DNA from: Siphonodentalium dalli
Lineage: Eukaryota; Mollusca; Scaphopoda; Gadilida; Siphonodentaliidae
Direction of reading: 5' to 3'
Assembly: GCA_032622095.1 (NCBI GenBank)
Contig: CP136065.1
Location: 54,121,949 to 54,185,948, forward strand
Length of the DNA: 64,000 nucleotides
A program made the position numbers and the translations under genes. The notes under the pieces are model-generated. The model did no database searches. It had not been told where the DNA came from and saw only the letters and a program-made list of their open reading frames with translations. Every line of letters starts with the position of its first letter. Position 1 is the stretch's first letter. Shown here piece by piece: positions 16,551-61,209 of this stretch.

Positions 16551-16552
16551 TA

Positions 16553-19349: not shown

Positions 19350-20168
19350 GTCCCCCGACGAAGGTGGCAGGTTTGAAGGATTTGGTTTTCAGATCCCTAT
19401 ACTACATACAAACTGTAGGAGGAATTGATTACACCAATATGATACAAAAGCATATTCACAAAATATGTTGCACATCTTCAATAACTCTAAAATATAAACC
19501 AAACATTTCTATGTCGAAAAAGGGCAATAACTCCGCCAAAATGACTCCGATTGAACTCAAAATCGCAGGTGCGCTGGTTCCCATGCTGGGTGACATCTGT
19601 GCCAAGTGTTAAAAAAATTGACTGGAAAATGACGGAATACAGGCTCGGACAAAAGATGCGTCACAGGATGTAAGATTCTAATGCGAAAAAGGGCAATAAC
19701 TCCGCCAAAATGACCCCGACTGAACTAAAAATCGCAGGTGCGCAGGTTCCCATGCTGTGCAAAGTTAAATCTTTTTTAAAAGAATTGACTTGAAAATTAC
19801 ATGCTCGGACACAAAAGATGGGTCCCAGGATGCACGATTCTATGTAAAAATGGCAAAATGGCCCCGACAGAATCAGAGTCTCAGTAAGGTGCGCATGTTC
19901 CAATGCTGATTGAGATCTGTGCCAAGAATTAACAATTAACTGAAAAGTTACGGAAATACAGGCTCGGACAAAAGATGCGTCCCAGGATGTACGATTCTAT
20001 GTCGAAAAATTGCAATAACTCCGCCAAAATGGGTCCGACCGAACTCAAAATCGCAGGTGCGCAGGTTCATATGCTGGTTGATATGTGTGCCAAGTTTAAG
20101 AAGACAGAATACAGGCTCGGACAGCAGTTCCTGGCGGAATGGACGGACGCACCGACGGACGAGGGGAC
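19350..20168 (-). mobile_element. Tandem-core element A ('pearl'-like)
   Basis: Reading the minus strand: the end GTCCCCTCGTCCGTCGG, a (CCGT)-type stretch (20139-20163), then about four monomers of about 150 bp marked by GGCAATAACTCCGCCAAAATG and CAGGTGCGC(A/T)GGTT, then the far end CGTCGGGGGAC at 19350. The far end is the same word that closes element F at 52.8 kb, although the cores differ. Non-coding. Confidence 0.7.
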
Positions 20169-21029
20169 AATAATGAAAGTGTATCTATTATAACAACTGT
20201 GATATAAAGTGTCGTTTTGTAAAGTTATTGGCAGATCCCAATTATAGTTCCAGAGATAAATAGTTGTTTGTGTCTCCTGAACAATTTGATTTTCCTGAGG
20301 TACGACAAATTAGGACTGATTGCTGTGATGACTGATACTTCAAATTTGATAACTGTCTTAGCAACATTGAATGTACTTTCTGGTGTCGCTTATTATATGT
20401 TTATTGTTACTTTGAGATATATTAATAATACTAGCTTGTTTCACCTGCTCATTTTACCGGTGTATGTGGTTAGTCACAGGTCCAACCGTTAGGGTTTTAC
20501 ATTATAGAACAATAAACAAAATTTGAATTTCCTTTAATTTTCCCAAGTATATACATGTACCCTCAATTAAATTTGGCAAATCATTTTGAAATTTGGCACA
20601 ATTTTTTTTATTAATTTGGCTAACATTTTGGCAAGAGAAAATTTTGGTCCAACGCCAACCCTGATTGGAAGCCGCGACGCTATTGATTAACATTGCCCCA
20701 TGTACAACAATGTGCGCCCACATAGATCAAATCCTGTTTACCACGTGGCGAAGAAGCCAAGGAGATATTTTTATCTCGCCTCTCGGTTTAATATATAGTT
20801 CCATGAATCACGGAAGGGGCGCCCACCAACGGAGGACATCAAGAGGGACAGCCAACTACTCCCTGTTTAGACTTAATTTATAGTCTTAAACGTGAATTTA
20901 TGGATATATTTTGATTTTATAATTAGCTGAATGCAGAGAGATTAAATATTCATGTAAAAAAAAATTAAGTTTGTTTCATCTAATTCTTCTTCAAATGCCT
21001 AATGTTTTGTTTCCATTAAAGAATACTCT
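20169..21029. other. No gene recognised
   Basis: AT-rich sequence with chance frames; the 20268-20492 frame is hydrophobic but has no family resemblance. Confidence 0.4.
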
Positions 21030-21143
21030 CACGTGTCTATTAATAGTGTCAGCACCATTGTTAATTTAATTACTTGGCATCGAAACAGAGTGAAATTGCC
21101 ATCACTATTATTAATTTTGGCCATCACGATTAATAGGCACCTG
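21030..21143. mobile_element. Short palindromic MITE (CAGGTGCCTAAT family), diverged
   Basis: Related to 29478-29642: arms with CTATTAATAGTG and ATTAATAGGCACCTG, and the shared middle GGCAT(T/C)GA-ACA-AGTGAAATT. Confidence 0.6.
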
Positions 21144-21230
21144 GGAGCAGCGCTGATATACGGGAGACTACTCAATGTTCAAGATTATCATGTCGCACTG
21201 GCTGGCGTTGGTGGTTACGCGAACATCTTT

Positions 21231-24200
21231 AGGTTACACTGGTGTAAATGTTTTCCATAGGCCTCGGTGCTAACGTTTTAGCGTATAGTGTTGGCAATAT
21301 AAATGATGGGTCCAAAATTTTCTTTAAATCTGAAAAATTGACATTTTGGGAAACTTTTTCCACAAAAAAATCATGTCTGTCTAGCAGGGAATTCGCCTTT
21401 AAATCTTATGTTTTCGTAACTAGTGTCAGAACCGCATAAAAAAATACAGTCATATTTTAGACCACACCAAAAAATTCAAACTTCACTACAAAGGGTTAAT
21501 TCCTGTGCCAATGGTTATTTTACCTATGGGAAATCATAGGGAAGAGGTGTGACGATTTTTTTATGTGAAAAGCACACAAGGCTATTGACCAATCAGGGCC
21601 CAGTGTCTATTTTATTCTCTCCTATATATTCCTCCCGCATCCGCCAGATGTCACTCGGAACCTTATTTACACCAGTGTAACCTAAAGCGATAGCCCGCTT
21701 TTTCGCGGAATAATTGTAACTCCCTACAATTCTTCAGAATTGCCCATCAATCGAAAAAATGTGTTCAAAAACAATATCACTTCTGTGGTTCTTTATTTAT
21801 CACACACAATTTAACCCCACCCCCTTTAACAAATTATTCATCAAAAAAGCACAATTTTCCACCACCAGTCATGTTCAGGCCCCATTTTCACTCAGGTTTA
21901 GGGGTCTGGTGTTGCAAACTTGGATCAGCTATGGAAGACTGTTCAATATTCTTTCCATGAGAGAACTTCTGGTGATGTGAGGTCATTGAGTCCAGATCTG
22001 ATCAGCTGAGCATCAAGCGCATGACTTTATCAGCACATTGAAGAATAAAATATGACATTTTCAGGTCTGCAAGGGTGATCCAAGATAACTGGATGTGGGT
22101 GTATATTGAATTAGTTGAATAAAGATATGCTCTCTTTGAATTGCTGGAGCATTTTCTTAAATGTGTCCAAGTTTTAGTGCTATTAACCTTCAAATGACCA
22201 TACCCACCAGTGGAAATGACACACTTTTATGATATATATCTGTATATCACTGGCTATAAAATCCAAAATACTTGTTAAATTAGGTTCTTATAACAATTGA
22301 TATATGTGTCGTTGACATGCCCATGTTATGGGTCATTTGCATTATCATGTGACTATTACCACCTTGAAATTTTTTGAAAATACCTTGAAAAATTGGCATT
22401 TTTTATGAAAAATCTTACTATTTTTTTGGCTGATGTAAGTGAAAGAAGGCATCAGCAGCAAGAATAGCCACATCAAGCATGAGATATTCATTGGACTAAA
22501 AGACCAGGCTCTGTAAAATGCATTAAAATGCTTTAAAGTGACTCCCAGGAATCAAAAATGATAAAAAGCTATTTTTTCCCTTTAGGTTACACTGGTGTAA
22601 ATGTTTTCCATAGGCCTCAGTGCTAACGTTTTAGCGTATAGTGTTGGCAATATAAATGATGGGTCCAAAATTTTCTTTAAATCTGAAAAATTGACATTTT
22701 GGGAAACTTTTTCCACAAAAAAATCATGTCTGTCTAGCAGGGAATTCGCCTTTAAATCTTATGTTTTCGTAACTAGTGTCAGAACCGCATAAAAAAATAC
22801 AGTCATATTTTAGACCACACCAAAAAATTCAAACTTCACTACAAAGGGTTAATTCCTGTGCCAATGGTTATTTTACCTATGGGAAATCATAGGGAAGAGG
22901 TGTGACGATTTTTTTTATGTGAAAAGCACACAAGGCTATTGACCAATCAGGGCCCAGTGTCTATTTTATTCTCTCCTATATATTCCTCCCGCATCCGCCA
23001 GATGTCACTCGGAACCTTATTTACACCAGTGTAACCTAAAGCGATAGCCTGCTTTTTCGCGGAATAATTGTAACTCCCTACAATTCTTCAGAATTGCCCA
23101 TCAATCGAAAAAATGTGTTCAAAAACAATATCACTTCTGTGGTTCTTTATTTATCACACACAATTTAACCCCACCCCCTTTAACAAATTATTCATCAAAA
23201 AAGCACAATTTTCCACCACCAGTCATGTTCAGGCCCCATTTTCACTCAGGTTTAGGGGTCTGGTGTTGCAAACTTGGATCAGCTATGGAAGACTGTTCAA
23301 TATTCTTTCCATGAGAGAACTTCTGGTGATGTGAGGTCATTGAGTCCAGATCTGATCAGCTGAGCATCAAGCGCATGACTTTATCAGCACATTGAAGAAT
23401 AAAATATGACATTTTCAGGTCTGCAAGGGTGATCCAAGATAACTGGATGTGGGTGTATATTGAATTAGTTGAATAAAGATATGCTCTCTTTGAATTGCTG
23501 GAGCATTTTCTTAAATGTGTCCAAGTTTTAGTGCTATTAACCTTCAAATGACCATACCCACCAGTGGAAATGACACACTTTTATGATATATATCTGTATA
23601 TCACTGGCTATAAAATCCAAAATACTTGTTAAATTAGGTTCTTATAACAATTGATATATGTGTCGTTGACATGCCCATGTTATGGGTCATTTGCATTATC
23701 ATGTGACTATTACCACCTTGAAATTTTTTGAAAATACCTTGAAAAATTGGCATTTTTTATGAAAAATCTTACTATTTTTTTGGCTGATGTAAGTGAAAGA
23801 AGGCATCAGCAGCAAGAATAGCCACATCAAGCATGAGATATTCATTGGACTGAAAGACCAGGCTCTGTAAAATGCATTAAAATGCTTTAAAGTGACTCCC
23901 AGGAATCAAAAATGATAAAAAGCTATTTTTTCCCTTTAGGTTACACTGGTGTAAATGTTTTCCATAGGCCTCAGTGCTAACGTTTTAGCGTATAGTGTTG
24001 GCAATATAAATGATGGGTCCAAAATTTTCTTTAAATCTGAAAAATTGACATTTTGGGAAACTTTTTCCACAAAAAAATCATGTCTGTCTAGCAGGGAATT
24101 CGCCTTTAAATCTTATGTTTTCGTAACTAGTGTCAGAACCGCATAAAAAAATACAGTCATATTTTAGACCACACCAAAAAATTCAAACTTCACTACAAAG

Positions 24201-24390
24201 GGTTAATTCCTGTGCCAATGGTTATTTTACCTATGGGAAATCATAGGGAAGAGGTGTGACGATTTTTTTATGTGAAAAGCACACAAGGCTATTGACCAAT
24301 CAGGGCCCAGTGTCTATTTTATTCTCTCCTATATATTCCTCCCGCATCCGCCAGATGTCACTCGGAACCTTATTTACACCAGTGTAACCT
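21231..24390 (+). repeat. Tandem amplification: 453-bp MITE x3 with 900-bp spacer x2
   Basis: Period about 1354 bp. MITE copies are 21231-21683, 22584-23037 and 23938-24390, each bounded by AGGTTACACTGGTGTAAA and its complement. Spacers 21684-22583 and 23038-23937 are almost identical. Copies differ by only a few single bases (for example CTCGGTGC versus CTCAGTGC) and one T indel, so amplification is recent. The short frames repeated within it are not genes. Confidence 0.95.
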
Positions 24391-24407
24391 ATAGTTAATT
24401 CCCACAG

Positions 24408-24474
24408 GGCATCGATCTATATTCAATATAGGTCGATGCACAGGGTCAGTGGGGGGGGGGGGGGGGGGGGGGGA
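24408..24474. repeat. Hairpin followed by poly-G run
   Basis: GCATCGATCTATATT pairs with AATATAGGTCGATGC (24408-24437), followed by over 20 consecutive G at about 24451-24473. The length of the G run is probably unreliable in the assembly. Confidence 0.7.
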
Positions 24475-24679
24475 CTCCAGGATACAATGTTAATTTTTCT
24501 TGTTTTGTTTTTATTTTTGGGACCCACCACCCCGGGAACGCAAGTTATTTCCTTTCCGATCTCCGACACCCACCCTTCCAACACAAGTTTTTTTCCAAGG
24601 GCAACTGGGGACCCATGAAAAATGGTGAAACTAGAAGGATAAGGCAGACAGAGGGTGTGAAATGTTTTAAACAACGGAT

Positions 24680-25770
24680 ATGCCAATCATGTAAGCTTAT
24701 TGAAAAGCACTAGAAATCTCAGAAAAATCACAGAACATTCATTAACTAAACTTGTCATATATATAAGGTTCAGCATCCATACACATAGGTTACCTGCAGT
24801 ATGTATGTGACAAAGATGTGTATGCACAGCAGCGTATTCTCTCACGTTGTGACTAACCCTAGCTAGATGACTATATGGTCACCCAGTCTATGTATAAATT
24901 ATATAATTATCGATCTGCAGTCTATTCCATTATCCAATAACAAACAATGGAAGAACATACTGATAAAATACTTGTCTTCTTTGCAAAGGGCCATAACTAT
25001 GTTAAAAAAAAACTTGTATCAAACCCATATTCGAACTCGATCTGTATTTTTGGGCTGAGAAATACAAATACAAAATTAGATTCCGATCGGATACAAAATG
25101 TTTGAGTTATTGCACCTTGCGTAAAGTGTCTACATACAAACAGACAGACAGCCTCGGACAAACGACGAGTGGTCAATCCGTAAGTCGATACAATGGTATC
25201 ATTGGTATGGCTACACATCAAAACGGAACTTGCCAATGAGACACATTAAAATATGTTGTGACAGAAATTACCGATTTTGAGAATCTATGAGGAATATCAT
25301 TGTTTATTGTTAACCTCCTCAATTTACGAGAGCATATATATAAATGACAAGTATATACGTGTTATGTAAGTATGCAGGCAAATGATAAACTAATCACAAT
25401 ATTAATCACAATATTATTTTACAGTGTTTACGCCATGTCACACGCATGCGATCGGGTTCTGACATTTTCAAGTTTCAAGTGTTAGTGAGGTCAGTGATAA
25501 TCTAATATAGAATTTAGAAATGGGAAGGCATACATAGAAGTGCCTGAATACCAGTTGCCCTTTTAAAAACCTGAATAGCAATATTACACCAATCAGCAGC
25601 CAGATTCTTTCAAGTGGATTCTGGTTTATCTTCAAAGTTCATGAATTAAAGAAGCGTAACACTATTGATTTAGTTGCTTGTAACTGTTTGGGCCAGCAGT
25701 AGAATTGGGCCAACTCACATCCAAATATACCACAATGTTATTTCAAATTTGAAAACAATAACAGTGAGAC
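24680..25770. other. No gene; fragment of a tandem-core element
   Basis: 24975-25175 has GGGCCATAACTATG and CAGACAGACAG words like the tandem-core elements but no repeated monomer. The rest is unassigned. Confidence 0.4.
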
Positions 25771-25782
25771 TGATAGAGCAGT

Positions 25783-26036
25783 CAAGCCTTGAAATACTGT
25801 GCCTGTCATTTGCAGAATGAGGTCCCCAGAGGGTGAATTTAGTGAAGCTACCCCGCATAGCGGGCTAGCACCACCAAATTCACCCTCTGGGAACCTCATT
25901 CTGCTGAGGTGTAAGCAGAATGAGGTCCCCAGAGGGTGAATTTGGTGATGCTAGCCCACTATGCGGGGTAGCTTCACTAAATTCACCCTCTGGGGACCTC
26001 ATTCTGCAAATGACAGGCACACTATTTCAAGGCTTG
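25783..26036. mobile_element. hAT-like MITE (family H), 254 bp, 8-bp TSD
   Basis: Perfect TSD AGAGCAGT at 25775-25782 and 26037-26044, TIR CAAGCCTTGAAATA. Each half is itself a hairpin: CAGAATGAGGTCCCCAGAGG ... and its complement, around GCTACCCCGCATAGCGGG. Relatives at 42.3-43.3, 53.8, 54.1 and 63.3 kb. Confidence 0.9.
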
Positions 26037-26044
26037 AGAGCAGT

Positions 26045-26714: not shown

Positions 26715-28195
26715 TTAAAGATGGTCTATCTCTTCCTAATAACATTTAAAACAAGAGGTACGCTGTTGCGTGGCATTTGCCCCCGACCGTAGCAATTCGG
26801 ATTAAGCATGGACGAAACTGCGGATATCCGATGAGGTCTATATGACCATTCCAAAAGAAGTTCGTACTAGAAATTCCGGAAACCCAAAAACAAGCGATTC
26901 GGAAACCCAAAAACAAGTACAAATTAAAATTTTCTAAGTTGAAAAAAGGGCCATAACTCTGGCAAAAATCATCAGATCATACCGAAATTCGCACTTGACA
27001 TCTATTTTCATATAATTGATCCACAAAAATACGGGATTTGCAATCGTACCACCAAAGCTCACGCTATCATTTGGAAACCCAAAAAACTAGACAAAATTTG
27101 AATTTTCTAAGTAAAAAAAGGGCCATAACTCTAGTGAAATTGGGTGGACAAAACCTGCGCTATGCATGTAGCTGTTCCCCCATGCTGCTCTATCACCATA
27201 CCAAATATCAGCTAAATCTGCCCAGCGGTTGCTAAACAATAATGCAAAATGTTTGTATGGACGGACAAAATTCAAATTTTCTAAGTTGAAAAAAGGGCCA
27301 TAACTCTGGCAAAAATCATCAGATCATACCCAAATTCGCACTTGACATGTATTTTCATATAACTGATCCACAAAAATACGGGATTTGCAATCGTATCACC
27401 AAAGCTCACGCTATCATCTGGAAACCCAAAAAACAAGAGAAAATTTGAATTTTCTAAGTTAAAAAAGGGCCATAACTCTGGTGAAAATGGGTGGACGAAA
27501 CCCGCGCTATGAATGTAGCTGTTCCCCCATGCTGCTCTATCACCATACCAAATATCAGCTAAATCTGCTAAGCGGTTGCTGAACAATGATGCAAAATGTT
27601 TGTACGGACGGAATAAATTGAATTTTCTAAGTAAAAAAAGGGCCATAACTCTGGTGAAAATGGGTGGACGAAACGCGCGCTATGCATGTAGCTGTTCCCC
27701 CATGCTGCTCTATCACCATACCAAATATCAGCTAAATCTGCCAAGCGGTTGCTGAACAATAATGCAAAATGTTTGTACGGACGGACGTACGGACAGAGAC
27801 GTCGACTATATACCCGCCGACTTCAAGTCGGGGGCATAATAATTTCCAGGGTAATATGTGAGTCGAAGACACCTGTCCGGAAAGGCTTCTATCAATTAAT
27901 ATTGATTTTATATCATTATGTTCTTATGTAATGCGATAATCAAGTGTGACATTTTTTTGTTACTATTTTTAGATAGAGTTATCCTGCATGGTACACTCAG
28001 AACAGACACGAGCCGTAAATGCGAGCCATAAAATGTTGTAAATTGATTGTATGTATGTTACACAAGAACATTCTAAATAAAATCAATATTAATTGATAGA
28101 AGTGCTTCCAGACAGGGGTTTTCGATTCATATTTATCATTTTCTACCGAGGAAACTATATAAAACTTGTTATATGAAGAGCTAGACCATCTTTAA
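26715..28195. mobile_element. TTAA-bounded element carrying tandem-core element C
   Basis: TTAA-AGATGGTCTA at 26715 and TAGACCATCT-TTAA at 28195, with pairing continuing through GCTCTTC. A second inverted pair lies inside (27855-27905 with 28083-28135, via CTATCAATTAATATTGAT). A related end, GACCATCTTTAA, is at 37843. Class uncertain. Confidence 0.6.
26778..27838 (-). mobile_element. Tandem-core element C ('pearl'-like)
   Basis: Minus-strand order: terminal hairpin TATGCCCCCGACTTGAAGTC... (27811-27838), TATAG, (CCGT)-type stretch (27773-27801), five monomers of about 173 bp, then the far end GGTCGGGGGCA at 26778. Monomers begin near 26948, 27120, 27294, 27467 and 27641 and are of two types in the order A-B-A-B-B. 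All carry AAAAGGGCCATAACTCT. Non-coding. Confidence 0.8.
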
Positions 28196-28772: not shown

Positions 28773-29081
28773 TCATTCGTCATCGATCAAATCAACTCGA
28801 CCATCATAGTCTAGAATATCTCTCTGTATTTTCAGTCCCGATGGATCTTCCCCCTTTTTCTTCATTTGTTCCTTTTCCAATAACTCCAGTAGAGGTGGAA
28901 TACTGATATATTTAGGCACCTGTTTGATTGCAAGGGGTTCTCCTCTAAGTTTACAAAATTCATCTTCAGCATGTTTCGGAACAAGTTGCCAGTCAGGTTT
29001 ATTGGTACCAGGAACTGGTACCTCTCCAAGAACACGGTTGCGGAATACAGCATTTCCCCAGCAATTTACTGTCCGTATTCT
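28773..29081 (-). CDS. MRPS34: MRPS34 exon 2 and stop
   Basis: 309 nt after the acceptor cttctttcag, phase 0, ending GAC GAA TGA. It encodes RIRTVNCWGNAVFRNRVLGE, then DWQLVPKHAEDEFCKLRGEP, IPPLLELLEKEQMKKKGEDP and the acidic tail DLIDDE. W-x-L-V-P-K-H is the strongest family match. Confidence 0.92.
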   Translation of the reverse strand, partial: RIRTVNCWGNAVFRNRVLGEVPVPGTNKPDWQLVPKHAEDEFCKLRGEPLAIKQVPKYISIPPLLELLEKEQMKKKGEDPSGLKIQRDILDYDGRVDLIDDE

Positions 29082-39700: not shown

Positions 39701-41138
39701 ATGTTTTTTGCACAGGTATGGACAATCTTTCAAATTTATTAAATATTCTTGAATTTACAGATGCAGACATTTGTAGGTGGCATATAAATTCCTTACAAAA
39801 GTGCTTGGTCTCATTTGAATTGGTGATCCAGTGGCTCGGCTAATAAATATTCTTAAATTTACAGATGTAGACATCTGTAGGTGGCATACATATTCCTCAC
39901 GAAAGTGCTTGGCCTCGTTTGAATTTTGGATCCAATGACTCGGCTATTAACTTGCATACCATATTAGGGCGCCATGTGCTGTCCAGTGGTTGCGAAGGTG
40001 GTTCAAATCATTTTAAGTGTGGATTTGTGATACAAAGACATAGAGGGAGGGTGACCTGGTTCGTGTACGCGGGGAGAATGTGTCAGTTGATCACCAGGTA
40101 ATAGCTGTTTCTATATATGCAGCCAATTTGCACTCCTGAGTATCTGAGATCACATCTACATGTATCTCATAACTTACAGGACAGCATTCAACTTTCTAGC
40201 AGAAGCTGCAAACCTCCCGTATTTGGAAATATTCAGCCGTTAGTTTTTCATATTATTAATGTAACATTTCATGACATATGTTTTGAGATCTGCATTACTA
40301 GAGTTCTAACACTGGCTCAAATCTCTAATTTGTTCTTATTCTCAACATTAGAAAACATGAGGTGTATGTTGTGTATATGCTGAACACAGTAAAACAAATT
40401 GAAGATTTTTTTAGGATATCAAGCATGTTGATACATGTACATGCTAGGATTCTCTTATGTCAGCGACATGACTTTGACTCCTCATTTCATGATCATAGCT
40501 ATCTTTTTTGCAGACACTGGTGAGGACATTCTTAAATTGGCTCAACAAAATGTGGAGAATTACTACACTACGTTACCAATGAGCGGGAATAAATCTGACA
40601 TTTCTGTGAGAGAGCTCAACTGGTTTACATATCAGCAAACAGAGATAACAGAAAATACAGGTAAATAAATGTACAATGTCTGCATTACTCACACTCAGCA
40701 CAATATGGCTTGTTACCATTCATCGGAAAGCTCTCCCGAGAGCTTTCCAATGAATGGCAACAAGCCATATTTTCGATTAAATCCTGAAAAGTTACCCATA
40801 ATTCTGCTGTGGTTAAGAGGTCGATTACTTAGGGCGTAACTGTACAGTGTGACAGGCCATAATCATTCCATGTTCACTAAGAGTAGCAAAAATTGGCATT
40901 AACCCTTCCATGTATGGAGCTTTCTGAAATTTCTGAAAAGTTTCACGCACCAGAACAAGTACATAATATGTCTTTAAAGGAATTAGTCTGTCAAAAAATA
41001 TTTTATCATAATACTAATAATATATGTCTAACAGACCCATTTCGCCAAGAAAATTCTAAATCGACCCGTTTGTATTTTTAGCTCACCTGAGACGAAGTCT
41101 CCGGTGGAGCTATAGTCATCACTCCTCGTCCGTCGTCC

Positions 41139-41173
<35 letters not shown>

Positions 41174-53100: not shown

Positions 53101-56100
53101 ACAATATGAAGCTTTTCTGTCTGCCATTCTCTCTAATGTCTCCTGTCCTTATCTTATCTGACAGCGTTTGATAAACAAATAACAGATAATGTTTATTTGT
53201 GTCATTAATTTCAATTAGATTAGATTAATTCCCAGGTGCTGTGTTCTATGCAGTTGTACAGATGTTACAATATTATGTTTATATCTAGGCTATTGACTTC
53301 TTTTCATCGGTGATAATGATGTGTCTTATTTATTATGCTGATGATTTCAAGGAACAATTATCAGAGGTGCCATGCTGTAGAGCCACCAGAGTAGAGATTC
53401 ATGGCATCATCTGATTTGGGTCTAACTTCATCTTCATTGCCCCCCCCCACGACTGTCTTGTAAACATTAGAATATGTTTTCCATGACAAAAAAAATATAA
53501 GATCAAATATGATGGAACTATCGTAGCGCCCTTTGACACAGAAAACAATGTTCTTTATGGTAAAAGTTATTATTTTCAATTTGAATTTCCAATGATTTTC
53601 AGACATTGTCAACTCAGGTAAATTTTTTTTACCAAAAATAAGTTTATAAATCCTATCTAATTCAGGTGTACAGAAATACTCGCTAACACCAGAAGAGGAA
53701 CATGAACTTCAAACATCACAGCTTCTTATTGCTGCTGACGGTATGTTTATTCAGGAAATAAATCCAATAAATTCACATCATCAAGCCTGAGTTTAGTATT
53801 CCTGTCATTTGCAGAATGAGGTCCCCAGAGGGTGAATTTACAATGTAGTGATGCTATCCCGCATAGCGGGCTAGCATCACCAAATTCACCATCTGGGGAC
53901 CTCATTCTGCTTAAGCCTCATCTTTGGAAAGTTTCTATATTATCAAATTTCTATAGAAACTTCTTCACATAGATTCTATTTCTTTTTTAATTTAGTTTCT
54001 CTATATCCCCAAATTGGCGGATGACACATTGCATAGTCGAGGTTCCCAATGGGTGTACATCACAATATTCACCATTTGGGAACCTCAATCTGAGTCTATG
54101 TCTACCATAGCAGATGAGACCATGCAGATTGAGATCCCAAGAGGGTGAATTTTGTGATGCTAGCGTCACTAAATTCACCCTCTGGGGACCTCATTCTGCA
54201 AATGACAGGCACACTGTAATCAGGCTTGATCATCAAAATGATGTCTTCCCCATTCGCTTTGATATCCTGAAATACTAACTATTACTCATTAATATTTCAA
54301 ATTAATGTTACGCCTGCAATTTCATTAAGAAAACTTCATCAGTGGTATTCACCAAATTAGACATTTTTATAAACTGGCCGGGTTTATTTGAAACATGTAT
54401 AACAATCACTTTATCTGTGGTCATTGCTAGTGCCTGCATGAGCGAACCCAGACTATCCAACAGCGAAGCATTCGATAGTCTGAAAAAATAGCAAGGAATT
54501 CCATTACTTAAAAAAAGTAATACATCAGGGTCAACCAACCACAACTTGCCACAAAAAAGAGCCACAGCCAACCAGAAAATACAGTAATGCTCTAAATAAT
54601 CGACTCCTTAACCACAGCAGAAATCCTGAAAAATTACCCATAATTCTGCTGTGGTTAAGGAGTCGATTATTTAGGGCATTACTGTAGTTGTGTGGAATTT
54701 TTGTGGGCGGTGACGTCATACTGCATGGAAAGCCCTGTATAGCTGGTATAAATGCAAAGGAATGTCTAAAGTGATTTGAAACACTCCGGTAGGGTGATCA
54801 AATAAAAATAGAGAATAATCTTGTTCAAAGTAGTTATTTTTACAAATATTATATCCAAATTTCACAACAAACACTTTCATTCTTATATATTAATTAAACG
54901 CAGTCACTCTCGATGGGGAAATCATTTTGGTTAGTTTATCGCCGATAGATGCATCCCAAATCGAGTCGTAAATATTTACAATTGAGCATCGTTCAGACAA
55001 TGTTTTAAATAGAGTGTAATATGTCTTTAAGATTATCGGATTCATTCAATAGTCTGGGTTGACTCAGACTGCTCTGGTGCAGCATTTCCAGAAGGAACAT
55101 AAGCTATAGAGTTATCCCTCATCAATCAAACATCAGCTATAGTGTTATCCCTCATATGTATCACTATAGAGTTATCCCTCATCATACGTATGTATCACTG
55201 TTCAGCATGACCAATCACATTGTAGAAATTAGCTGGCATCTGTTTTGTCTTTTTAACCAGTGATATTACATTTTACAAAGAATAAAACATTTCTTTGAAG
55301 TAATTTGAATTAAGACTTTTTCAGTATCTTAAAGGTACTCAATCTGATTCTATTGTTCCCATATAATCAGATTCCAACAACAACAACATTTTTAGACATG
55401 CCGCTTCAGGTATCAGAATCGATTAATTGCCCAAAAATAATACTAACTATAGTATAAAATTGCCCAAAACATGTTATTTATCAACATGTTGTCCGATGAA
55501 ATTTGGCCTTATTATCAACACAAAGCCTCTTGATTTTAGAGTTATCCATCTTCATCCACAATTTGGTCTGAGACTGTCGGCTTGTCAACTTTATACTGGG
55601 CTACTATTAAGTCTTGACGGTGAAAAATAATAGATTTCGAACATCAATATCTAATAACTCTGAAGCTTGATTGGTGGGTTCCTCGACTTGAATCAAATAT
55701 TTTTTACCCTCGAATCCAAATGGATAATAATTGAGGGGCGTTCAATCGGATTATGCATCTTTAAGTTTATGAGGTACCGGTATATTGTGACCCCTTGTAT
55801 TGTGTATAAACTATACAGTTTTCTTTGTAATCATTATTGACATGCAGCATGAAACTTTGATTTTTGAGAAACCTTGTGTGCCCTGGATTGGCACCATTCA
55901 GTCTGTGTTCCCATCCTGCCAAATACATATTATAGCCCACCAATATTCAAGAGATAATTACATAGTTTAATCTATGACTGTGACCACAATTGATAATATA
56001 ACTACCTTTATTGTGATTTAAACCTTTCATGACTAGAGCTTCCTGAAATTTTGCGAAAACCCTGTGCCAATGCATTCTTTTATAGGGAGCCTCGCATATA

Positions 56101-59100
56101 TAAGAGAATGCATTGGCCTAATAATATTTACATTGACTTGCAAGCCAGTGCTTTCTCTTATATTGGCGAGGCTTCCTATGGGAGACCTGAATATATAAGA
56201 GAATCCACTGGCACAGCGTCTTTAATGCTGCACCAGCACAGCTCCCATCATAAAAGTGTTAATAAAATTGATTTTTATACCTATCACAGATATTGTTTGG
56301 TAACATGAATGGGTGAATTGAATCATATGTGGTCATTATCTCACACACAGTTATCCTTGTGGAATACCAGACTACAGGAATAAACTCTTTTCAAGTTAGA
56401 CCAATCATTCATTTTTACATAGACCTTCCAATGAATACATAACAATATTTTCTATTCTCCTACTTCCGTGCAGATGATTAAAGCTGGTAGATAATCACTA
56501 CAATAGAGGGAATATCTTAATCACAATCACGTCTCAGCTTCAATAACAGCCTTGCATAATCTCTATAAGGCAACATTAATTTAATAGCCTGGTTTACGAA
56601 CTCCTCCTTCGACTTTTTCCTCAATACTGTATAAAAATATAACTTTTTTTAAATGAATTGATTTATGTTCAAGCTGATTAAAGGGGGACTATACACTAAA
56701 TCCAGCCATTTATGGGGCCATCTCCTACTATACTCAACAGAAAATACCCAATAAAAGAATTAATATGAGTCAGTGTGAGAGTTAAATAAACTCACATACA
56801 CAAGGAATCACGTACATGTATAACAACCTGATAATTATAAGAAAACGAGTAAAAGGCTTAATTAAGCCCTTCACTCATTCTCATTATAAGTACCATGTTG
56901 TTTTACATCGTTCATAGAGTACATTAGTGTATTTTGCACTCATCTCTGACTCATATTCATTCATTTGTTGCATATTTTCTGTTGAATAGACTAGGAGATG
57001 ACTTTACAATGGCTGGACTTAGGTACAGTCTCCCTTTAAAATATGAATCATGTTGTCACAGTGGTGAAGAAAATATTCATGGCAGTACAGTAATGCCCTA
57101 AGCTCTCCCCGAGAGCTTTCTAATGAATGGCAACAAGCCATATTTCCGACTAAATCCTGAAAAGTTACCCATAATTCTGCTGTGGTTAAGGAGTCGATTA
57201 CTTAGGGAATTACTGTATCTTTATTTGCTTTCGCCTTCTTTTCTGTTATTTATACAGTTTTATGGGAAGAAATACCTAAATTTTATAACTTGAGTAAAAC
57301 TTGTCTTATTTAAAAATATTAAAAAAAAATCCTCCTGCATCTACTTTTTTTCAACCCAAATGTTCGTAAATCAGGTTATTTCATTGTTGTGGCCTACCCA
57401 GCAATGTTAATATGACTTGCGTAAGGATGTCGGTAGTTTCTAATTGAAACCTGGTTTTGGATCCCAATCCATTGTCCGGTCTCCACAGAGCAAGCAATAT
57501 ACTATTGTGTAGAGGGTGTCTGTGCATGACAATACAATGTTAAATCAGCCGTACATGTGACTTAATGTCATTGCAATAGCAAACACTCACAACTATAAAA
57601 TATGTGCTCCTAACTAGATCTCATCTCACTGGTCCCGCAGGTTATGAATAACCATTCCATGAGTATATATCTATTCTATATACTTATTGACAGGTATATC
57701 CCTTAGGAAATGTTCACATAATAAGTTCAACAAATGATCATAGGTCTTTTATTGAACTTTTATCAGAACATTTCCTACCAATGAATATGAATCCTTCTGC
57801 ATTTGTGTTATCGTTTCGTCATACTGTTGTCTGCTCATTTTATCTGAACATCCCACCAAATGAATAATAGACTATTCCATCGTGTATTTTAGAACTGAGT
57901 GGGAGAATCCATTTAGTATAGAAATGGTTAACAAGCATTTTAGATGCTCGGAACATTCAAGACCTAAATGCCATATGCTCTCAGGCATGCTATATATCTA
58001 TAGACATAAATTTTTATATATGTAGAAATATATATACAAATGTTATCTATTTATTACCTGGTGCAAATTAATGATTAAATCTCACTGGAGGGACTATCAG
58101 TCATTACAGCAGAGGGAAGATCTCTCCTGAACTTCATTAGAACTTTGTACAATCTCTAGACCCTTCAAAATATATACATAACAAATATGTATTCCTATAG
58201 TCAGGTATGCCAAAAGGATATATAAAAGTGAGTGAGGTGATGACCACATATACATGTATATTTACATGTATATTTATAAACTTCCTATTTCTATCCTAAC
58301 CAGGGTTGATCCAATAATATCGACAGGCTGGACAGTAAGACATAAACAATGCAATGATACTTCAAGCACTTTAAGGCCACACATAGTCAATTTCCCATTT
58401 ATCCCACAGGGTTAGAGTGAAAGACAACAACTGGAATGCGTTAATAGCTACCTGTTTAGAAAAACATAATTATTTACAGGAAGCTGATACAATAAATGTA
58501 GTAGTAACGAATACCAACATGTGGGTGACAATTTTTTGAGGCACAATAACCGCATATATAGATGTAGGCCAAAAGGGGGCAGACATCAATCGAATGTGTA
58601 TTCCCAAAACAAACAAAACGGGGAGGGAGGGAGGGTTTTCAAAATAAGTGACCATCTTCGCCGATCAATTTATTGGAAAGAAAGTTAACACAACCAAACA
58701 ATATAGTGCCCACGATTCTTCTCTGCAAATTATTCACATTCGCTAACTAAATAGCATTACTGCCAAAATACTTGTACTTTATAATTATGTTTTAATTTCA
58801 TCTAAGTACTTCGCAACATCAGTGTATAGCTAACTTATCTTAAATGTCATGCCTTATGGTGTAGTGATCTATACCAGTGAAAGATCTCGCTACCAAACGT
58901 GTTTGCGTTTGTACACAATTTTGGTTTAAATTCATGCATCTGGTTAACCCTTTGCGATAAAATATGTCGCTCTTATACGACTATGTTTTCTCAGACCAAA
59001 ATATCTTGAAAAAGGGTGCACATGCAGGGTTTCGAGACCTTGCGCTCAGGCCAGAGACTGCGTGGCCTAAATCCATTTTAGTTATACCCCTCACAACGAA

Positions 59101-61209
59101 GTTAGGGGGGTATACTGGAATCAGCTTGTCAGTCCGTCGTCCGTCCGTCATCTGTCCGTGGACACAAATTTGCTCTGGAGTTTTTCTCAGTCGTTTTTTG
59201 ATCAATTTCCGTTAAACTTGGCACAGACATCAACCACCATGGGAACCTGTGCACCTGCGATTATCACGTCTGTCGGACTTTTTTTGGTGGAGTTATCTCC
59301 ATTTTTCGACTTAGAAAATGTTCGCAGCATGTATAATTTTGTCCGAACTTTTATTCCTACAATTTTAGGTCAATTGTTTTTAAACTTGGCACAGATATTT
59401 AGTACCATGGTAACCTGTGCACCTGCGAGTATGACGTCTGTCCGACATTTTTTGGTGGAGTTATCCCCCTTTTTCAGCTTAGAATTTTTTTTGCAACATG
59501 CATAACTTTGTCCGAGCTTTTATTCCTCATTTTTAGGTCAATGTTTTTTAATCTTGGCACTGATATTTAGTACCATGGGAACCTGTGCACCTGCGATTAT
59601 GATGTCTGCCCACTTTTTTTGTGGAGTTATTCCCCTTTTTCGACTTAGAACTTTTATTCCTAAATTTTTCGGTCAATAGATTTAAGATTAGATTAGGGTT
59701 GTGCACCTGCAATGGGAACTGTCATTTTATTATTTTAACTAAATGTTTACTGACATGTGAAACATCTTAGTATTTTAAAAACACGGGGGGGGTATCCTTA
59801 GTCCCATTAGGACAGTCACACCTCTAGTTTCATCAGTACTTTTTGTATTTTGTATATTCTATGAACTTTATCAATAGATCATCTCTCTCAACACTACCTC
59901 TGTGCTGCCTGTACTCAGGGACGTAGCAACAGGGGTGTGGGGGTGTCTCACCCCTCCCAAATGAGGACCATAATTTTCAATAGTTGGAAATTTCATGACT
60001 CAAATTCCAAAAGTTGTAATTATACTTATGCATTTAGTTCCTCTCATAGCAGTATATTAGTCAGTTTATTTAAATTTGTCCTGCAAGGTAGCTATGTAAT
60101 GTCAATATTACAAGTCAATACACAGTCATTTGAGTAAGTAAATTCCAATAATGCTCATTACCTGAACACATATATTAAATTGAAAGCAGAGCATTTCCTT
60201 CAAGTTCAGATTGGTATGTTTTACCAACCATAGATTCATGGTCACTAGTCTATAAGTAATGTCAAACCTCCATATCTTTCTGATGACAGCTTTAACAATA
60301 TAACAATCATTCAGCATACATACCATTGTGTGAGTTATAACTTGTGCCTCCTTGGAATTTGAATATATGTAACTCGTAATCATTCCTCAACCATATTCTG
60401 ATTAATATCATGTATAATATACTGCATGCACAGTGTCCTCAATACATAAAACATTGATCAATGCTATGTCATTCTTGTTACTAGTGTCTTTATTTACACA
60501 CCCCATACTCTTAAAAAGAACATATTGAAACCCAAATTATTAAGCCATAAAGCCAATATTGGAATTTTGCATTACTCAAACCAAATCTTATATAGTTGGA
60601 AATTTATTAGACCAAATCCTATATAGTTGGAAATTATATGGTCTCACACCCCCCATCCCATTGGAACCCCCTAGCAATGTCACTGTCTGTACACTGACAA
60701 AACATTGCATAAAAAATAAATTGCTTCAGTATTTTCTGTGTGATCTATGGTGTGATGTCACTGAAGTTGAAATTATGTCATCTGCATTCATCTTTTCATA
60801 CACCCATTTTTAAAAACATGGGGCATATTATATTATTGATCTGTTGTAATGTCCATCCATCTGTCCATTTGATTTTGGTTTCTGGATGATAACTTTAGAT
60901 AGTCTCAACTGAATGGAATGAAATTTGGTATATGAGTTTACCAGCCCAATATACATGTCAAGATCGAATTTGGGTCATACCCACCAATTTTAACAGAGTT
61001 ATGGCCCTTTGTTGGAATTACCATGTCCTGGCGATACTCTTGTTAAAATTTCAAGCAATAACTTTCGGGCTTTTGTACCATTCCCAATGTATTTTCATAT
61101 TCATTCCAGTGATATATGATGATGACAAAACAGATGCCTTCTTCAGAACAGTTTATTATATCATGTTAAAACAGCCTGCTAAGAAAGTCTTCATTGCTCT
61201 TGAAAAAAG
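33585..61209 (+). CDS. METTL22: METTL22 methyltransferase-like protein 22, exons 1-7, 3' partial
   Basis: Class I (seven-beta-strand) SAM-dependent methyltransferase of the METTL21/22 protein-lysine methyltransferase group. Joining 33585-33717, 36599-36799, 39334-39374, 39571-39715, 40514-40660, 53666-53740 and 61110-61209 gives 280 codons plus 2 nt with every junction in phase. The N-terminus (MDESRTVLSMQEN, then LSDVHV) and the acidic YDEDGDL stretch match the vertebrate protein. The SAM motif I is VCDLGAGVGLTSI. It is followed by the FCTDTGEDIL acidic strand, the ELNW strand end, the LLIAAD strand and IYDDDKTDAFF. The frame runs off as LEKR with the last codon split, so about the last fifth of the protein (human is about 404 aa) is outside the window. 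Introns are about 2.9, 2.5, 0.2, 0.8, 13.0 and 7.4 kb and are full of transposons. Head-to-head with MRPS34. Identity rests on recognised family motifs; the substrate is not inferred. Confidence 0.93.
33757..34282. mobile_element. TA-flanked MITE (TGGGAGGCC family), full length
   Basis: TIR TGGGAGGCCAAATTCACA, TA on both sides, 526 bp. The interior is repeated TTACGCTTAAGC(A/G)TAATGC, itself palindromic. It begins 39 bp after METTL22 exon 1. Fragments at 34985-35057 and 38690-38892. Confidence 0.85.
34420..34832. mobile_element. Inverted-repeat element, about 410 bp
   Basis: GTCAAGTAACCAATTTTGAA and GGATTTCC-TGCAAATCT at 34418-34500 pair with 34755-34832. About 85% complementary arms, AT-rich loop. 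Confidence 0.65.
34985..35057 (+). mobile_element. TGGGAGGCC MITE, right-end fragment
   Basis: TTACGCTTAAGCGTAATTGG, then TGAATTTGGCCTCCCATA, identical to the right end of the full copy. Confidence 0.75.
35105..35566. mobile_element. Mutator-like MITE, 462 bp, 10-bp TSD
   Basis: CTTACTGATG at 35095-35104 and 35567-35576. TIRs of about 120 bp start CCGATGGGGTCATTGTCACA and include three direct copies of a GTAGCCAGCTTTT word. Long TIR plus a 9-11-bp TSD is typical of MULEs; no transposase. Confidence 0.85.
35889..36519 (+). mobile_element. TTAA palindromic MITE, subfamily 2 (rearranged)
   Basis: TTAA at both ends: left TTAACCCTTTTATGATGGGA, right GCTCCAGTCAAGGAAGGGTT AA. It contains hairpins at 35939-35993 and 36413-36475, a half-hairpin at 36023-36050, and an unrelated insert with four CACTTCTCCCTATT words (36306-36375). 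Confidence 0.75.
36599..36799 (+). CDS. METTL22: METTL22 coding exon 2
   Basis: 201 nt between the acceptor tcttattacag and a strong donor gtgagt. It encodes TAFEFQVAHVRGKSGCED and later LQYDEDGDLILERRP, ending VISI plus one nt. The DEDGDL motif followed by basic residues is characteristic of the METTL22 N-terminal region. Phase 1 at both ends. Confidence 0.9.
36800..37840. other. METTL22 intron 2, no feature recognised
   Basis: Non-coding. Near 36870-36940 there is a cluster of GGCTGGTTAGC/GGCTCAGC words; nothing assignable. Confidence 0.4.
37843..38350 (+). repeat. Fragment of a tandem-core-type repeat
   Basis: Starts near a GACCATCTTTAA end, contains (CTGT)4 at 37915-37930 and diverged monomers with AAGTTG(T/C)C and GAATTATG(T/G)CCC(C/T)TT words. 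A related sequence is at 60845-61025. Confidence 0.45.
38690..38892 (+). mobile_element. TGGGAGGCC MITE fragment, split by another MITE
   Basis: Left part with ACTTAAGTGTAATTCC and TTATGCTTAAGCGTAA; right part AAATTTGGCCTCCCA. The CAGTAATGCCC-family element at 38747-38863 lies between them. Confidence 0.75.
38747..38863. mobile_element. CAGTAATGCCC MITE, nested copy
   Basis: TA at 38745-38746 and 38864-38865; TIR CATTAATGCCCTAAG (one base changed) and GGGCATTACTG. Only one arm of the internal palindrome is kept. Confidence 0.8.
39334..39374 (+). CDS. METTL22: METTL22 coding exon 3 (41-nt microexon)
   Basis: The acceptor is gcttattttcag; the exon encodes (N)HCLATKLDGVGKQ. This is the block just before VWxGALLL in METTL22, where human has a very similar EHTMATPLEDVGKQ-type sequence. 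The donor is CAG|gtttca, which is weak. A stronger-looking GT eight bases upstream (gtaaac) would break the frame to exon 4, so phase and homology choose this one. The exon is too short for ordinary ORF finding. Confidence 0.85.
39571..39715 (+). CDS. METTL22: METTL22 coding exon 4 (SAM motif I)
   Basis: 145 nt starting VWNGALLLCDFIIAHN and containing the glycine-rich SAM-binding loop VCDLGAGVGLTSIIAG, ending HVFCT plus one nt. Acceptor tcttcgacag, donor gtatgg. This is the diagnostic exon: the W-x-G-A-L-L-L helix followed by D-L-G-A-G-x-G-L is the METTL21/22-family signature. Confidence 0.95.
39741..39948 (+). repeat. Tandem duplication in METTL22 intron 4, 104 bp x 2
   Basis: AAATATTCTTGAATTTACAG and AAATATTCTTAAATTTACAG start the two copies; both contain GTAGGTGGCATA and AAAGTGCTTGG. 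It begins 26 bp after the exon 4 donor. Confidence 0.85.
40514..40660 (+). CDS. METTL22: METTL22 coding exon 5
   Basis: 147 nt from the acceptor tcttttttgcag to the donor gtaaat. It encodes DTGEDILKLAQQNVENYY, then VRELNWFTYQQTEITENT. The leading Asp after FCT is the acidic residue at the end of strand beta-2 that contacts the SAM ribose in this fold. ELNW corresponds to the beta-3/beta-4 E-L-D-W segment of the family. Confidence 0.93.
40705..40842. mobile_element. CAGTAATGCCC MITE, left end lost
   Basis: AATATGGCTTGTTACCATTC and its complement form the hairpin; the right end GGGCGTAACTG is followed by TA. No left terminal repeat. A short fragment of the TTAA MITE end (TTAACCCTTCCATG) follows at 40898. 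Confidence 0.7.
41080..41960 (+). mobile_element. Tandem-core element D ('pearl'-like) in METTL22 intron 5
   Basis: Terminal hairpin AGCTCACCTGAGAC / GTCTCCGGTGGAGCT (41080-41111), CTATAG, (TCTG/TCCG)n at 41137-41177, then about five diverged monomers of 150-170 bp. These are marked by CAGATTTGTTCAAATG-GGTC and AACCAGGG(C/A)CATAA. The far end is not resolved. Core fragments of the same family recur at 47440-47905 and 51495-51690. Confidence 0.75.
42290..43350. mobile_element. Cluster of hAT-like family H elements
   Basis: Several overlapping pieces: CAGAATGAGGTCCCCAGAGG / complement hairpins at about 42316-42400, 42657-42750 and 43030-43100, and half copies near 42800 and 43240. They are separated by a repeated unit with CCTCATCTTCTGGGAAGTAT and CCCAATGGGTGAACATCACC. 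No clean TSD; looks like serial insertion or local duplication. Confidence 0.7.
43355..47345 (+). mobile_element. Tandem-core element E, 4 kb, with higher-order repeat
   Basis: Left hairpin AGCTCAACTTTAC / GTAAAGTTTGAGCT (43355-43384), (CCGT)/(GTAC)-type stretch 43397-43447, then about 23 monomers of 155-167 bp, and the far end AAGTTGAGCTA (47335-47345). Monomers carry AGCACGGGC(T/C)(A/G)CAGGTCGTA, GGGAACGAGT(C/A)ATTTTGGGG and AACATGGCCGCCAGC. A variant with TTCAAAATTCAATCCATTAG recurs every three or four monomers. Short frames seen in it are by-products. Confidence 0.85.
47440..47905 (+). repeat. Core fragment of family D
   Basis: About three diverged monomers with AGTAATTCTTA-AA, GGGGTCACC(T/A)GGT and CAGGGACATAACTAT, no hairpin or microsatellite. 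Confidence 0.6.
48000..50588. other. METTL22 intron 5, no feature recognised
   Basis: The least repetitive 2.5 kb of this intron. ATAAAGAGC words at 49381, 49463 (variant) and 49511 echo repeat R2. No coding exon was found here, and exon phases leave none missing. Confidence 0.4.
50600..50949. mobile_element. Mutator-like MITE, 350 bp, 11-bp TSD
   Basis: Perfect 11-bp duplication ATGTGTTATAT (50589-50599 and 50950-50960). TIR TACCGCTAT, then AGTAATTGACCA. The interior repeats GATACCGCGGTA-like palindromic words. TSD length suggests MULE affinity; no coding. Confidence 0.85.
50961..51494. other. METTL22 intron 5, no feature recognised
   Basis: AT-rich non-coding sequence. Confidence 0.4.
51495..51690 (+). 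repeat. Core fragment of family D
   Basis: GGTGTGGATGTTCCCTTGGT and GCCAGGGCCATAACTCT words match element D monomers; one to one and a half units. Confidence 0.65.
51746..52817 (+). mobile_element. Tandem-core element F ('pearl'-like), 191-bp monomer
   Basis: Hairpin GTCCCCTGACG / CGTCGGAGGAC (51746-51770), CTATAG, (CCGT/GCGT)n at 51787-51823, then about 4.7 monomers of 191 bp. The last monomer is cut short and the element closes with GTCGGGGGAC (52808-52817). Each monomer contains GAGATTGGGTACCTTCA and CAACTCCTCCTACAG. Copies are over 95% alike. The repeated 61-aa frames are not genes. Confidence 0.85.
52818..53660. other. METTL22 intron 5, 3' part
   Basis: Non-coding. A solo T1-element end (GTAGAGATTCATGGCATCAT) lies at 53391-53410 and a poly-C run at about 53440. 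Confidence 0.45.
53666..53740 (+). CDS. METTL22: METTL22 coding exon 6
   Basis: 75 nt from the acceptor tctaattcag to the donor gtatgt, encoding VQKYSLTPEEEHELQTSQLL then IAAD. In the family this helix leads into the beta-4 strand (LLIAAD, like LFAAEV). It is reached across a 13-kb transposon-filled intron. Phase 1 at both ends agrees with its neighbours. Confidence 0.9.
53782..54228. mobile_element. hAT-like family H element, 447 bp
   Basis: TIR CAAGCCTGA plus CTGTCATTTGCAGAATGAGG, with the complement ending at 54228. The middle contains the CCCAATGGGTGTACATCAC segment seen in the 42-43 kb cluster. Flanks share only ATCAT, so the TSD is unclear. Starts 41 bp after METTL22 exon 6. Confidence 0.75.
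54582..54684. mobile_element. CAGTAATGCCC MITE, minimal copy
   Basis: 103 bp, TA on both sides, CAGTAATGCTCTAAATAATC paired with its complement; almost all of it is hairpin. Confidence 0.85.
54690..55328. other. METTL22 intron 6, no gene
   Basis: Contains three GTTATCCCTCAT repeats (55108-55190); otherwise unremarkable. Confidence 0.4.
55329..55764 (+). mobile_element. TTAA-bounded family B element, copy 2
   Basis: TTAA at 55329-55332 and 55761-55764. Same sequence as 4797-5238 in reverse, with blocks AATTGCCCAAAAATAAT, GTTGTCCGA and GGTCTGAGACTGTCGGCT. Confidence 0.8.
56018..56262 (-). mobile_element. TTAA palindromic MITE, subfamily 2
   Basis: TTAA at both ends. The left end is like TTAA-ACCTTTCATGACTAGAGC; the right end CAGCTCCCATCATAAAAGTG TTAA is the reverse of the 35.9-kb left end. 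Two hairpins (56069-56120 and 56142-56212). Confidence 0.8.
56263..57080. other. METTL22 intron 6, no feature recognised
   Basis: No frame or repeat supported. Confidence 0.4.
57088..57215. mobile_element. CAGTAATGCCC MITE
   Basis: TA at 57086-57087 and 57216-57217; left arm shortened (CAGTAATGCCCTAAGC, then CTCTC), right arm complete. Confidence 0.8.
57715..57930 (+). repeat. Dispersed repeat family R1, copy 3
   Basis: Same ordered blocks as 13320-13545 (AATAAGTTCAACAAA, AATCCTTCTGCA, CCAAATGAATAATAG). Confidence 0.6.
57931..59083. other. METTL22 intron 6, no feature recognised
   Basis: AT-rich. A lone TTAACCCTTTGCG (58945) resembles a TTAA-MITE end but no partner was found. Confidence 0.4.
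59084..59795 (+). mobile_element. Tandem-core element B ('pearl'-like)
   Basis: Hairpin ATACCCCTCAC / GTTAGGGGGGTAT (59084-59113), (CCGT)-type stretch 59133-59161, three to four monomers of about 180 bp with CTTGGCAC(A/T)GA and GGAACCTGTGCACCTGCGA, and the far end GGGGGGGGTAT (59785-59795). The core words are also those of element A in reverse, so A and B share monomer ancestry but not ends. Confidence 0.8.
59796..60844. other. METTL22 intron 6, no feature recognised
   Basis: A short direct repeat, CCTATATAGTTGGAAATT-like, lies at 60582-60635; no exon signals fit the gene phase. Confidence 0.4.
60845..61025 (+). repeat. Tandem-core-type fragment before METTL22 exon 7
   Basis: GTCCATCCATCTGTCCATTT followed by a monomer with AACAGAGTTATGGCCCTTTG; related to 37843-38350. 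Confidence 0.5.
61110..61209 (+). CDS. METTL22: METTL22 coding exon 7
   Basis: 100 nt from the acceptor tattcattccag to the strong donor gtaagc. It encodes IYDDDKTDAFFRTVYYIM, then LKQPAKKVFIALEKR with the last codon split after 2 nt. The Y-D-D-D-x-T-D-A motif is highly characteristic of METTL22. No acceptor plus coding sequence for the next exon (expected to begin near NFTL) is visible up to 64000. Confidence 0.92.

Follow-up and report, generated by a model that had tools for sequence, protein, structure and literature searches.

The Elements and Their Plan

The window, by which we mean the whole 64-kb stretch of Siphonodentalium dalli contig CP136065.1 that was analyzed, has a GC content of 0.35–0.44 (in 4-kb steps) and carries at least seven small elements with a plan of the rolling-circle type, lettered here by coordinate as A (19.35 kb, minus strand), B (26.78 kb, minus strand), C (41.08 kb), D (43.35 kb), E (51.75 kb), F (59.08 kb) and G (13.92 kb). 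Tandem arrays were located with Tandem Repeats Finder, and self-similarity with a blastn self-comparison of the window. Starting from the hairpin, the general plan is a T run, an arm of ~8–13 bp separated from its inverse by a short loop, a TATAG-type motif, a short spacer and a GTCC/CGTC microsatellite; next come a core (in tandem in A to F) and a unique tail, and then the arm once more, inverted, before a short palindrome and a T-rich end. The order of these modules is the same across all seven loci. A preliminary description of this DNA had reported the hairpin, a CCGT-type microsatellite, monomer arrays and inverted far-end copies, all of which are present where it placed them; its motifs are correct by coordinate and fit its own letters when these are taken as A for 19.35, B for 59.08, C for 26.78, D for 41.08, E for 43.36 and F for 51.75 kb.

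Element B (26752–27838, minus strand; terminal limits by inspection) begins with the 5′ subTIR TGCCCCCGAC, which forms a hairpin with its inverted copy (27806–27838), followed by TATAG, a CCGT/ACGT microsatellite and 172-bp monomers, and closes with the 3′ subTIR GTCGGGGGCA, a short palindrome and CTCTTG before a T run. The 5′ part of element C (41079–41990, plus strand) comprises the hairpin of subTIR AGCTCACC and its inverted copy, TATAG, a CCGT/CTGT microsatellite and 147-bp monomers. In element D (43353–47366, plus strand), the hairpin is formed by subTIR TAGCTCAACTT, the microsatellite is CCGT/ACGTGTGT, and ~21 copies of a 164-bp monomer precede the 3′ subTIR AAGTTGAGCTA at 47335–47345 and the palindrome AGTGTCA-T-TGACACT. 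Element E (51744–52838, plus strand) has a hairpin of subTIR GTCCCCTGAC, TATAG, a CCGT/GCGT microsatellite, 191-bp monomers, the 3′ subTIR GTCGGGGGAC, a short palindrome GGTC-tgc-GACC (by inspection) and a T-rich end, while element F (59083–59827, plus strand; terminal limits by inspection) has a hairpin of subTIR ATACCCC, a CCGT microsatellite, 168-bp monomers, the 3′ copy GGGGGGTAT at 59787, a weak palindrome and CTCTAG before TTT. Element G (13922–14636, plus strand), missed in the preliminary description, contains subTIR TTGCTCAACTT, a degenerate hairpin, TATTG, a CCGT microsatellite, the 3′ subTIR ATGTTGAGCTA and a degenerate palindrome; Tandem Repeats Finder lists no array in it. Element A (19328–20171, minus strand; limits tentative on both sides) carries an E-type 3′ subTIR at 19350–19359, an E-type monomer remnant at 19410–19492 and F-type central monomers, and its 5′ hairpin, looked for at the locus, is absent. 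The periods given by Tandem Repeats Finder are 172/347 bp for B, 147 bp for C, 164/483 bp for D, 191 bp for E and 168 bp for F; A has no entry, and its repeats align with one another at 70–81% (blastn).

The 5′ Module

The stem-loop energy of each end was compared with that of 200 dinucleotide shuffles. At the 5′ end, z-scores of −4.5 (B), −4.8 (C), −5.8 (D), −3.2 (E) and −3.1 (F) were obtained, with one shuffle in 200 as good in E and none in the other four, and the stem-loop is no better than shuffles in G (z −1.4, 21/200) and A (z −1.3, 25/200). A 5′ subTIR with an adjacent inverted copy is therefore seen beyond shuffles in five of the seven elements, and is degenerate in G and absent from A. 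The motif next to the hairpin is TATAG in B, C and E, as had been claimed for these three, TATTG in D and G, and TATACT in F. A GTCY/CCGT-type microsatellite lies beside the 5′ module in all seven. The subTIR of F starts with ATACCC, as does the DINE-1 subTIR of Drosophila melanogaster in the portion of the DINE-1 paper drawn on here (PMC2374699).

Probable Affiliation With HINEs

The substructures published for HINEs and DINE-1 occur here in their published order, namely a 5′ subTIR that forms a hairpin with its inverted copy, a GTCY/CCGT microsatellite, central repeats and, toward the other end, a 3′ subTIR, a palindrome (visible by inspection in B, C, D and E) and a T-rich target. We consider the elements to be non-autonomous Helentrons (HINEs, of the DINE-1 type), whose ends are of several kinds within a single genome, and put the probability of this reading at roughly 0.9. 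The Helentron-like affinity proposed in the preliminary description was right, and the published anatomy narrows it to the HINE/DINE-1 type.

Excerpts of the Drosophila work describe for DINE-1 13-bp subTIRs, a further inverted repeat that partly complements the 5′ one, a (CCGT)n(CTGT)n or GTCY microsatellite, central repeats of ~50–500 bp with no homology among species, a ~90-bp conserved core, a 3′ stem-loop whose stem varies among species, and TT targets (Yang and Barbash, 2008; PMC2374699). The elements described here share with DINE-1 the subTIR and adjoining inverted repeat, microsatellite, tandem core, 3′ subTIR and TT targets, along with a 3′ palindrome where one is visible, but differ from what those excerpts describe in that three subTIR groups occur inside 64 kb (PMC2374699). 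The 11 Cg_HINE elements of Crassostrea gigas, in the extracts of that study, follow the same order with element-specific changes of subTIR, inverted repeat and palindrome (Vojvoda Zeljko, 2020; PMC7492417). Their likeness to the present elements extends to the 11–12 bp subTIR, the complementary inverted repeat, the GTCY/GTCC microsatellite, the 140–180 bp monomers, the 3′ subTIR (with a palindrome where one is visible), insertion at oligo-T with no duplication, and element-specific ends (PMC7492417). HINEs were tied to Helentrons, and their families defined by an identical subTIR of at least 11 bp, in the relevant part of Thomas (2014; PMC4067079). According to the same part, HINE-Mo of Metaseiulus occidentalis resembles the present elements in its subTIRs, 3′ palindrome, variable number of terminal Ts and unchanged empty sites, whereas its subTIRs are themselves palindromic and a separate inverted repeat, found here, is missing (PMC4067079). 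Pearl elements (CvA/CvE/CvG) and MgE of bivalves, likened here by description only, carry repeats of ~160 bp in short arrays flanked by conserved ends in the excerpted accounts (PMC7492417; PMC11136912).

The architecture itself is thus already established for DINE-1 and HINEs. The three-copy end rule formulated in the preliminary description is real, but had been published for Drosophila DINE-1 in 2008 and for oyster Cg_HINE in 2020, and ends that are family-specific and change together have likewise been published. What is added here are element G, the empty sites of D, a candidate far end of C, the mosaic look of A and core boxes common to unlike ends. The window contains HINEs of three end groups, one of them nested beside its own empty site, and such windows lend themselves to tests of how the ends of Helentrons diversify yet stay matched.

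The combination that marks canonical Helitrons (5′ TC, 3′ CTRR, A/T insertion and no terminal inverted repeats) was not found, as the ends here, by contrast, have inverted subTIRs and sit at T runs; the terminal letters, by inspection, are CTTG in B and C, CTAG in F, which fits CTRR, and neither of these in D and E. The reversed reading, in which the hairpin is the 3′ terminator of a Helentron, was rejected, since published anatomy puts the hairpin at the 5′ end. Searches of other sequence collections covered several strings. A C-type hairpin pattern based on bivalve repeats, which the window’s C matches inexactly, was found in 0 viral and 0 genome contigs, two zeros that are therefore of little weight. 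A 14-mer of the C end matched 58 viral contigs, which are taken as chance matches because none of the 58 shows GAGCTA within 45 bases or CGTCCGTC within 120 bases after it. A 23-mer of the C monomer, the 5′ pattern of D and G, and the core box matched 0 viral contigs each. As text, six end strings occur in 18 papers and five core strings in one, and to judge by title no paper among them deals with these elements.

A Second Copy and the Empty Sites of Element D

Element G was recognized by homology to D: 13917–13975 aligns to the 5′ end of D (43348–43408) at 82%, and 14541–14636 to its 3′ end (47274–47366) at 77% (blastn). The latter alignment stops at 47366, the final base before the right flank of D resumes the empty-site sequence, so that both copies of the D family in the window (D and G, 2/2) agree on both ends, in line with the prediction that full-length copies end alike.

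D sits in a repeat that is present twice more without it, just upstream (42438–43000, plus strand, with junctions at ~42551 and ~42922), and it is the only one of the seven elements with an empty site in the window. The left flank, up to 43352, aligns to the empty copies at 42438–42550 (94.7%) and 42785–42921 (95.6%), and the right flank, from 47367, to 42552–42629 (89.7%) and 42923–43000 (91.0%) (blastn). At the empty sites the sequence is TAATTTGCAGAAG, and at the filled site it is TAATTT|TTAGCTC ... CTTTCAT|CAGAAG. The far end of D is placed at ~47366, since the empty-site alignment sets the right junction. The search for empty sites proposed earlier thus yielded, for D, two empty paralogs with a junction at a T run and no target-site duplication. 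The base after TTT is G in both empty copies and T at the filled site, so that the exact T|T target rests on one assumed substitution. These junctions fit an insertion of D at a T run that left the target unduplicated, in agreement with what the sections drawn on report for HINEs (PMC4067079; PMC7492417). Palindromic repeats of the GAATGAGGTCCCCAGAGGGTGAATTTAGTG type occur at 25782–26037, 42298–43300, 53794–54230 and 63251–63523, and one of these groups hosts D.

The small size of the elements, their inverted terminal motifs and the T-rich target would also suit MITEs with subterminal inverted repeats, mobilized by a cut-and-paste DDE transposase that leaves a 2-bp TT duplication, and DINE-1 was formerly so classed according to the excerpted source (PMC2374699). 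Such an origin is nevertheless very unlikely, because the ends are asymmetric, with a hairpin at one and, at the other, a subTIR and then a palindrome distinct from it, and because the right flank of D reads CAT|CAG, with no TT duplication seen.

Far Ends and Their Matching

The inverted copy of the 5′ arm at the far end was evaluated by a free search downstream of the hairpin in comparison with dinucleotide shuffles (200 per element; 60 for C and D). The observed match was reached by no shuffle in B (0/200) and D (0/60), by 11, 26, 35 and 44 of 200 in E, A, F and G, respectively, and by 55 of 60 in C, for which 7.3 kb were searched. The far-end match thus stands alone only in B and D, is borderline in E, and does not stand alone in A, F, G and C. 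Far-end reverse complements had been claimed for B, D, E and F, and the motifs are indeed present in all four, but only B and D beat all shuffles by themselves. As an inverted copy of the 5′ subTIR, the 3′ subTIR is significant by itself in B and D, present but weaker in A, E, F and G, and doubtful in C. The 3′ palindrome is visible by inspection in B, C, D and E, weak in F and degenerate in A and G, and the folding energies of the 3′ ends are not convincing (z-scores of −2.0 to +1.0): 7 of 200 shuffles do as well as E, and 19 to 171 of 200 as well as the other six; the predicted 3′ fold of E differs from its palindrome seen by eye.

Taken as a set, the elements match their own ends: the observed sum of scores was reached by 4 of 5040 permutations with seven elements and by 1 of 120 with B to F only, a test that leans toward the claim because the 3′ windows of A to F were set on the motif itself (that of G was found via homology to D). 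Individually, the own 3′ end is the strict best partner in three of seven elements (B, D and F). A matches the 3′ end of E as well as its own, and E matches the 3′ end of A better; G matches the 3′ end of D better than its own, C ties with A, D and G, and the arm of B scores 9 against the 3′ end of E and 8 against that of A. By eye the arms fall into A/B/E, which are CCCC(C/T)GAC-like, C/D/G with GCTCA, and F alone. Since arms are alike within A/B/E and within C/D/G, the independent cases of covariation are fewer than the elements. What covaries is about three groups with internal variants instead of five independent sequences.

That five of the seven far-end matches are not clearly above shuffles, and that the 3′ ends fold weakly, is what would be expected of scattered satellite fragments whose ends are chance hairpins near T runs. 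We regard this as barely credible, given that one module order recurs at seven loci, that the 5′ hairpins exceed shuffles in five of seven, that D and G have both ends in common around unlike middles, and that D has a clean empty site.

A Possibly Interrupted and a Mosaic-Like Element

A possible distal part of C lies at 47440–48434 (plus strand), where C-type repeats (47447–47925) precede a candidate end at 48403–48434 composed of a candidate 3′ subTIR GGTGAGC (48403), ACAGTCA-T-TGACTGT, CTTG and TT, and this stretch is parted from the 5′ part of C by other repeats and element D. Compared with the palindrome of D, two pairs are changed, on both sides of the stem (by inspection), and the fold of the candidate end has a z-score of −1.5, with 19 of 200 shuffles as good. 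Position, palindrome and adjoining C-type repeats hint that the far end of C, which the preliminary description had left open, may lie at 48.40 kb, a placement that is no more than possible, as so short a match is expected by chance over 7 kb. Further C-type monomers directly precede E, at 51484–51740, so that the insertion site of E may have been the tail of one more C-type element.

The 3′ end of A aligns well to that of E, and a stretch near it aligns to the monomers of E at 72%, while the monomers of A align to those of F at 70–79% (blastn). On these alignments, A looks like a mosaic in which E-type ends are joined to an F-type core. When the 5′ end of A was aligned to E, its TTGTCC fell on the microsatellite of E and off the subTIR, so that deletion of the hairpin and 5′ truncation of A are inseparable.

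Tandem Cores Shared Across End Groups

For the comparison of cores, one to three monomers of each element, or some unarrayed core in the case of G, were aligned locally in pairs. Among the 15 pairs of A to F, the same-orientation score was reached by 0 of 200 shuffles in five (A–B, A–F, B–C, B–E and B–F) and by 4 of 200 in E–F; the forward score exceeded the reverse in 12 pairs, tied in C–D and was lower in C–E and D–E. One of the six pairs with G was also at 0/200, namely D–G in reverse orientation, where no homology is expected, which shows that chance has room in 42 comparisons at 200 shuffles. The elements had been said to share an architecture but not one sequence. This is only partly right, since same-orientation similarity that no shuffle reached links A, B, C, E and F through their cores.

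Two short boxes, close to AAAYTTGGYAYRGATRTT and GAGTTATNNCCCTTTTTCGACTTAGAA, are found again in monomers whose elements have unlike ends, and they keep one orientation with respect to the hairpin. Across the window, a 30-position box (GAGTTATNNCCCTTTTTCGACTTAGAAAATTT) reaches a score of 20 or more 17 times, counting two off-by-one duplicates, and each of these hits lies in A, B, E or F. Box AAAYTTGGYAYRGATRTT is found with at least 16 of 18 positions at 26 places (20 in D, three in F, two in A and one in the C-type repeats at 51.5 kb) and at none outside cores in the window; at a threshold of 15 there are 33 inside cores, of which C adds three, and six outside; the best score is 14 in B and in G, and no place in E attains 14. 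Because the boxes were drawn up by eye on the very sequences counted, all these counts are descriptive and, inside the elements, circular; the pairwise core shuffles use no boxes.

Such sharing has a precedent, because oyster monomers that are otherwise dissimilar have two conserved segments in common in the excerpted study (PMC7492417). By the same excerpts, a Cg_HINE monomer cluster keeps one pair of flanks, whereas A and F have monomers in common and differ in their ends, and short boxes here recur across end groups, in contrast to the oyster elements (PMC7492417). It is conceivable, though we think it quite unlikely, that the tandem core is an interchangeable cis-acting module that moves between end families, with the matched subTIR triplet supplying identity; such a module could, for example, be a series of sites that load the Rep/helicase or aid strand displacement. 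If confirmed genome-wide, the core boxes would offer a testable reason for the frequent 150–190-bp arrays in these elements.

Partner Protein and Proposed Mobilization

None of the 14 stop-to-stop open reading frames of at least 110 amino acids, which are all those in the window, matched a Rep/helicase in Pfam, and no autonomous copy was found among them; introns, short exons or reading frames below 110 amino acids could conceal a partner. Three of the 14 lie inside A, B and F, where the best Pfam match has an E-value of 0.16, below the curated cut-off. The only match that passes the curated cut-off is at 28776–29138 (minus strand), mitochondrial ribosomal protein S34 (PF16053, E-value 1.9e-14), which is likely an exon and indicates an animal source.

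Presumably the Rep/helicase (endonuclease) of autonomous Helentrons elsewhere moves these protein-less elements by a rolling-circle route. Under the standard model, the protein would nick the 5′ end beside the subTIR hairpin, after which a single strand would be displaced through the tandem core up to an end marked by the 3′ subTIR and palindrome, and would go in between T residues without duplication of the target. The core would expand, shrink and be swapped between families, an exchange that may lie behind the shared segments. Because the three copies of the motif (the 5′ subTIR, the inverse beside it and the 3′ subTIR) are required to match one another, with no such requirement between families, they would drift together, provided that the subTIR serves as a recognition site. 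That one machinery reads structure plus matched ends, as the preliminary description suggested, is plausible, but the pattern of the ends does not single out one machinery, because several autonomous Helentrons, each with its own subTIRs, would look alike.

A refinement of the HINE reading, concerning the same elements, would have base pairing instead of protein recognition enforce the covariation: on the displaced strand, the 5′ subTIR would switch between pairing with its neighbor, as a hairpin, and with the 3′ subTIR, in synapsis. The 3′ copy matches the 5′ arm without mismatch over 10 bases in B and 11 in D, whereas each of the predicted hairpins of B and D contains a bulge, which speaks for such a switch. 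A protein that binds the double-stranded subTIR would, however, predict an identical pattern, and there are only three end groups, with a 3′ match of only 7 bases in F and C, so that we hold the switch to be rather improbable as an addition to the HINE model.

Other Repeats in the Window

Apart from these elements, 21227–23041 and 22580–24394 form a direct duplication of 99.7% identity with an offset of ~1353 bp, a recent tandem event (blastn). Inverted repeats of 355 bp (31844–32198 and 32478–32831) with 98.3% identity lie ~280 bp apart and have the look of a foldback or TIR element. A self-complementary family with up to 98.9% identity occupies 1503–1670, 5381–5610, 35936–36049, 36398–36474, 56082–56216, 61413–61643 and 62390–62564, and an inverted-repeat family with arms of ~110 bp, mostly at 86–97%, is found at 16551–16860, 38745–38854, 40702–40850, 54577–54698 and 57107–57217. 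Finally, 24984–25084 and 60915–61011 match each other in inverted orientation at 72%, and 60948–61013 matches the monomer of B at 78%; judging by these similarities, 24984–25084 and 60915–61011 are perhaps remnants of further elements.
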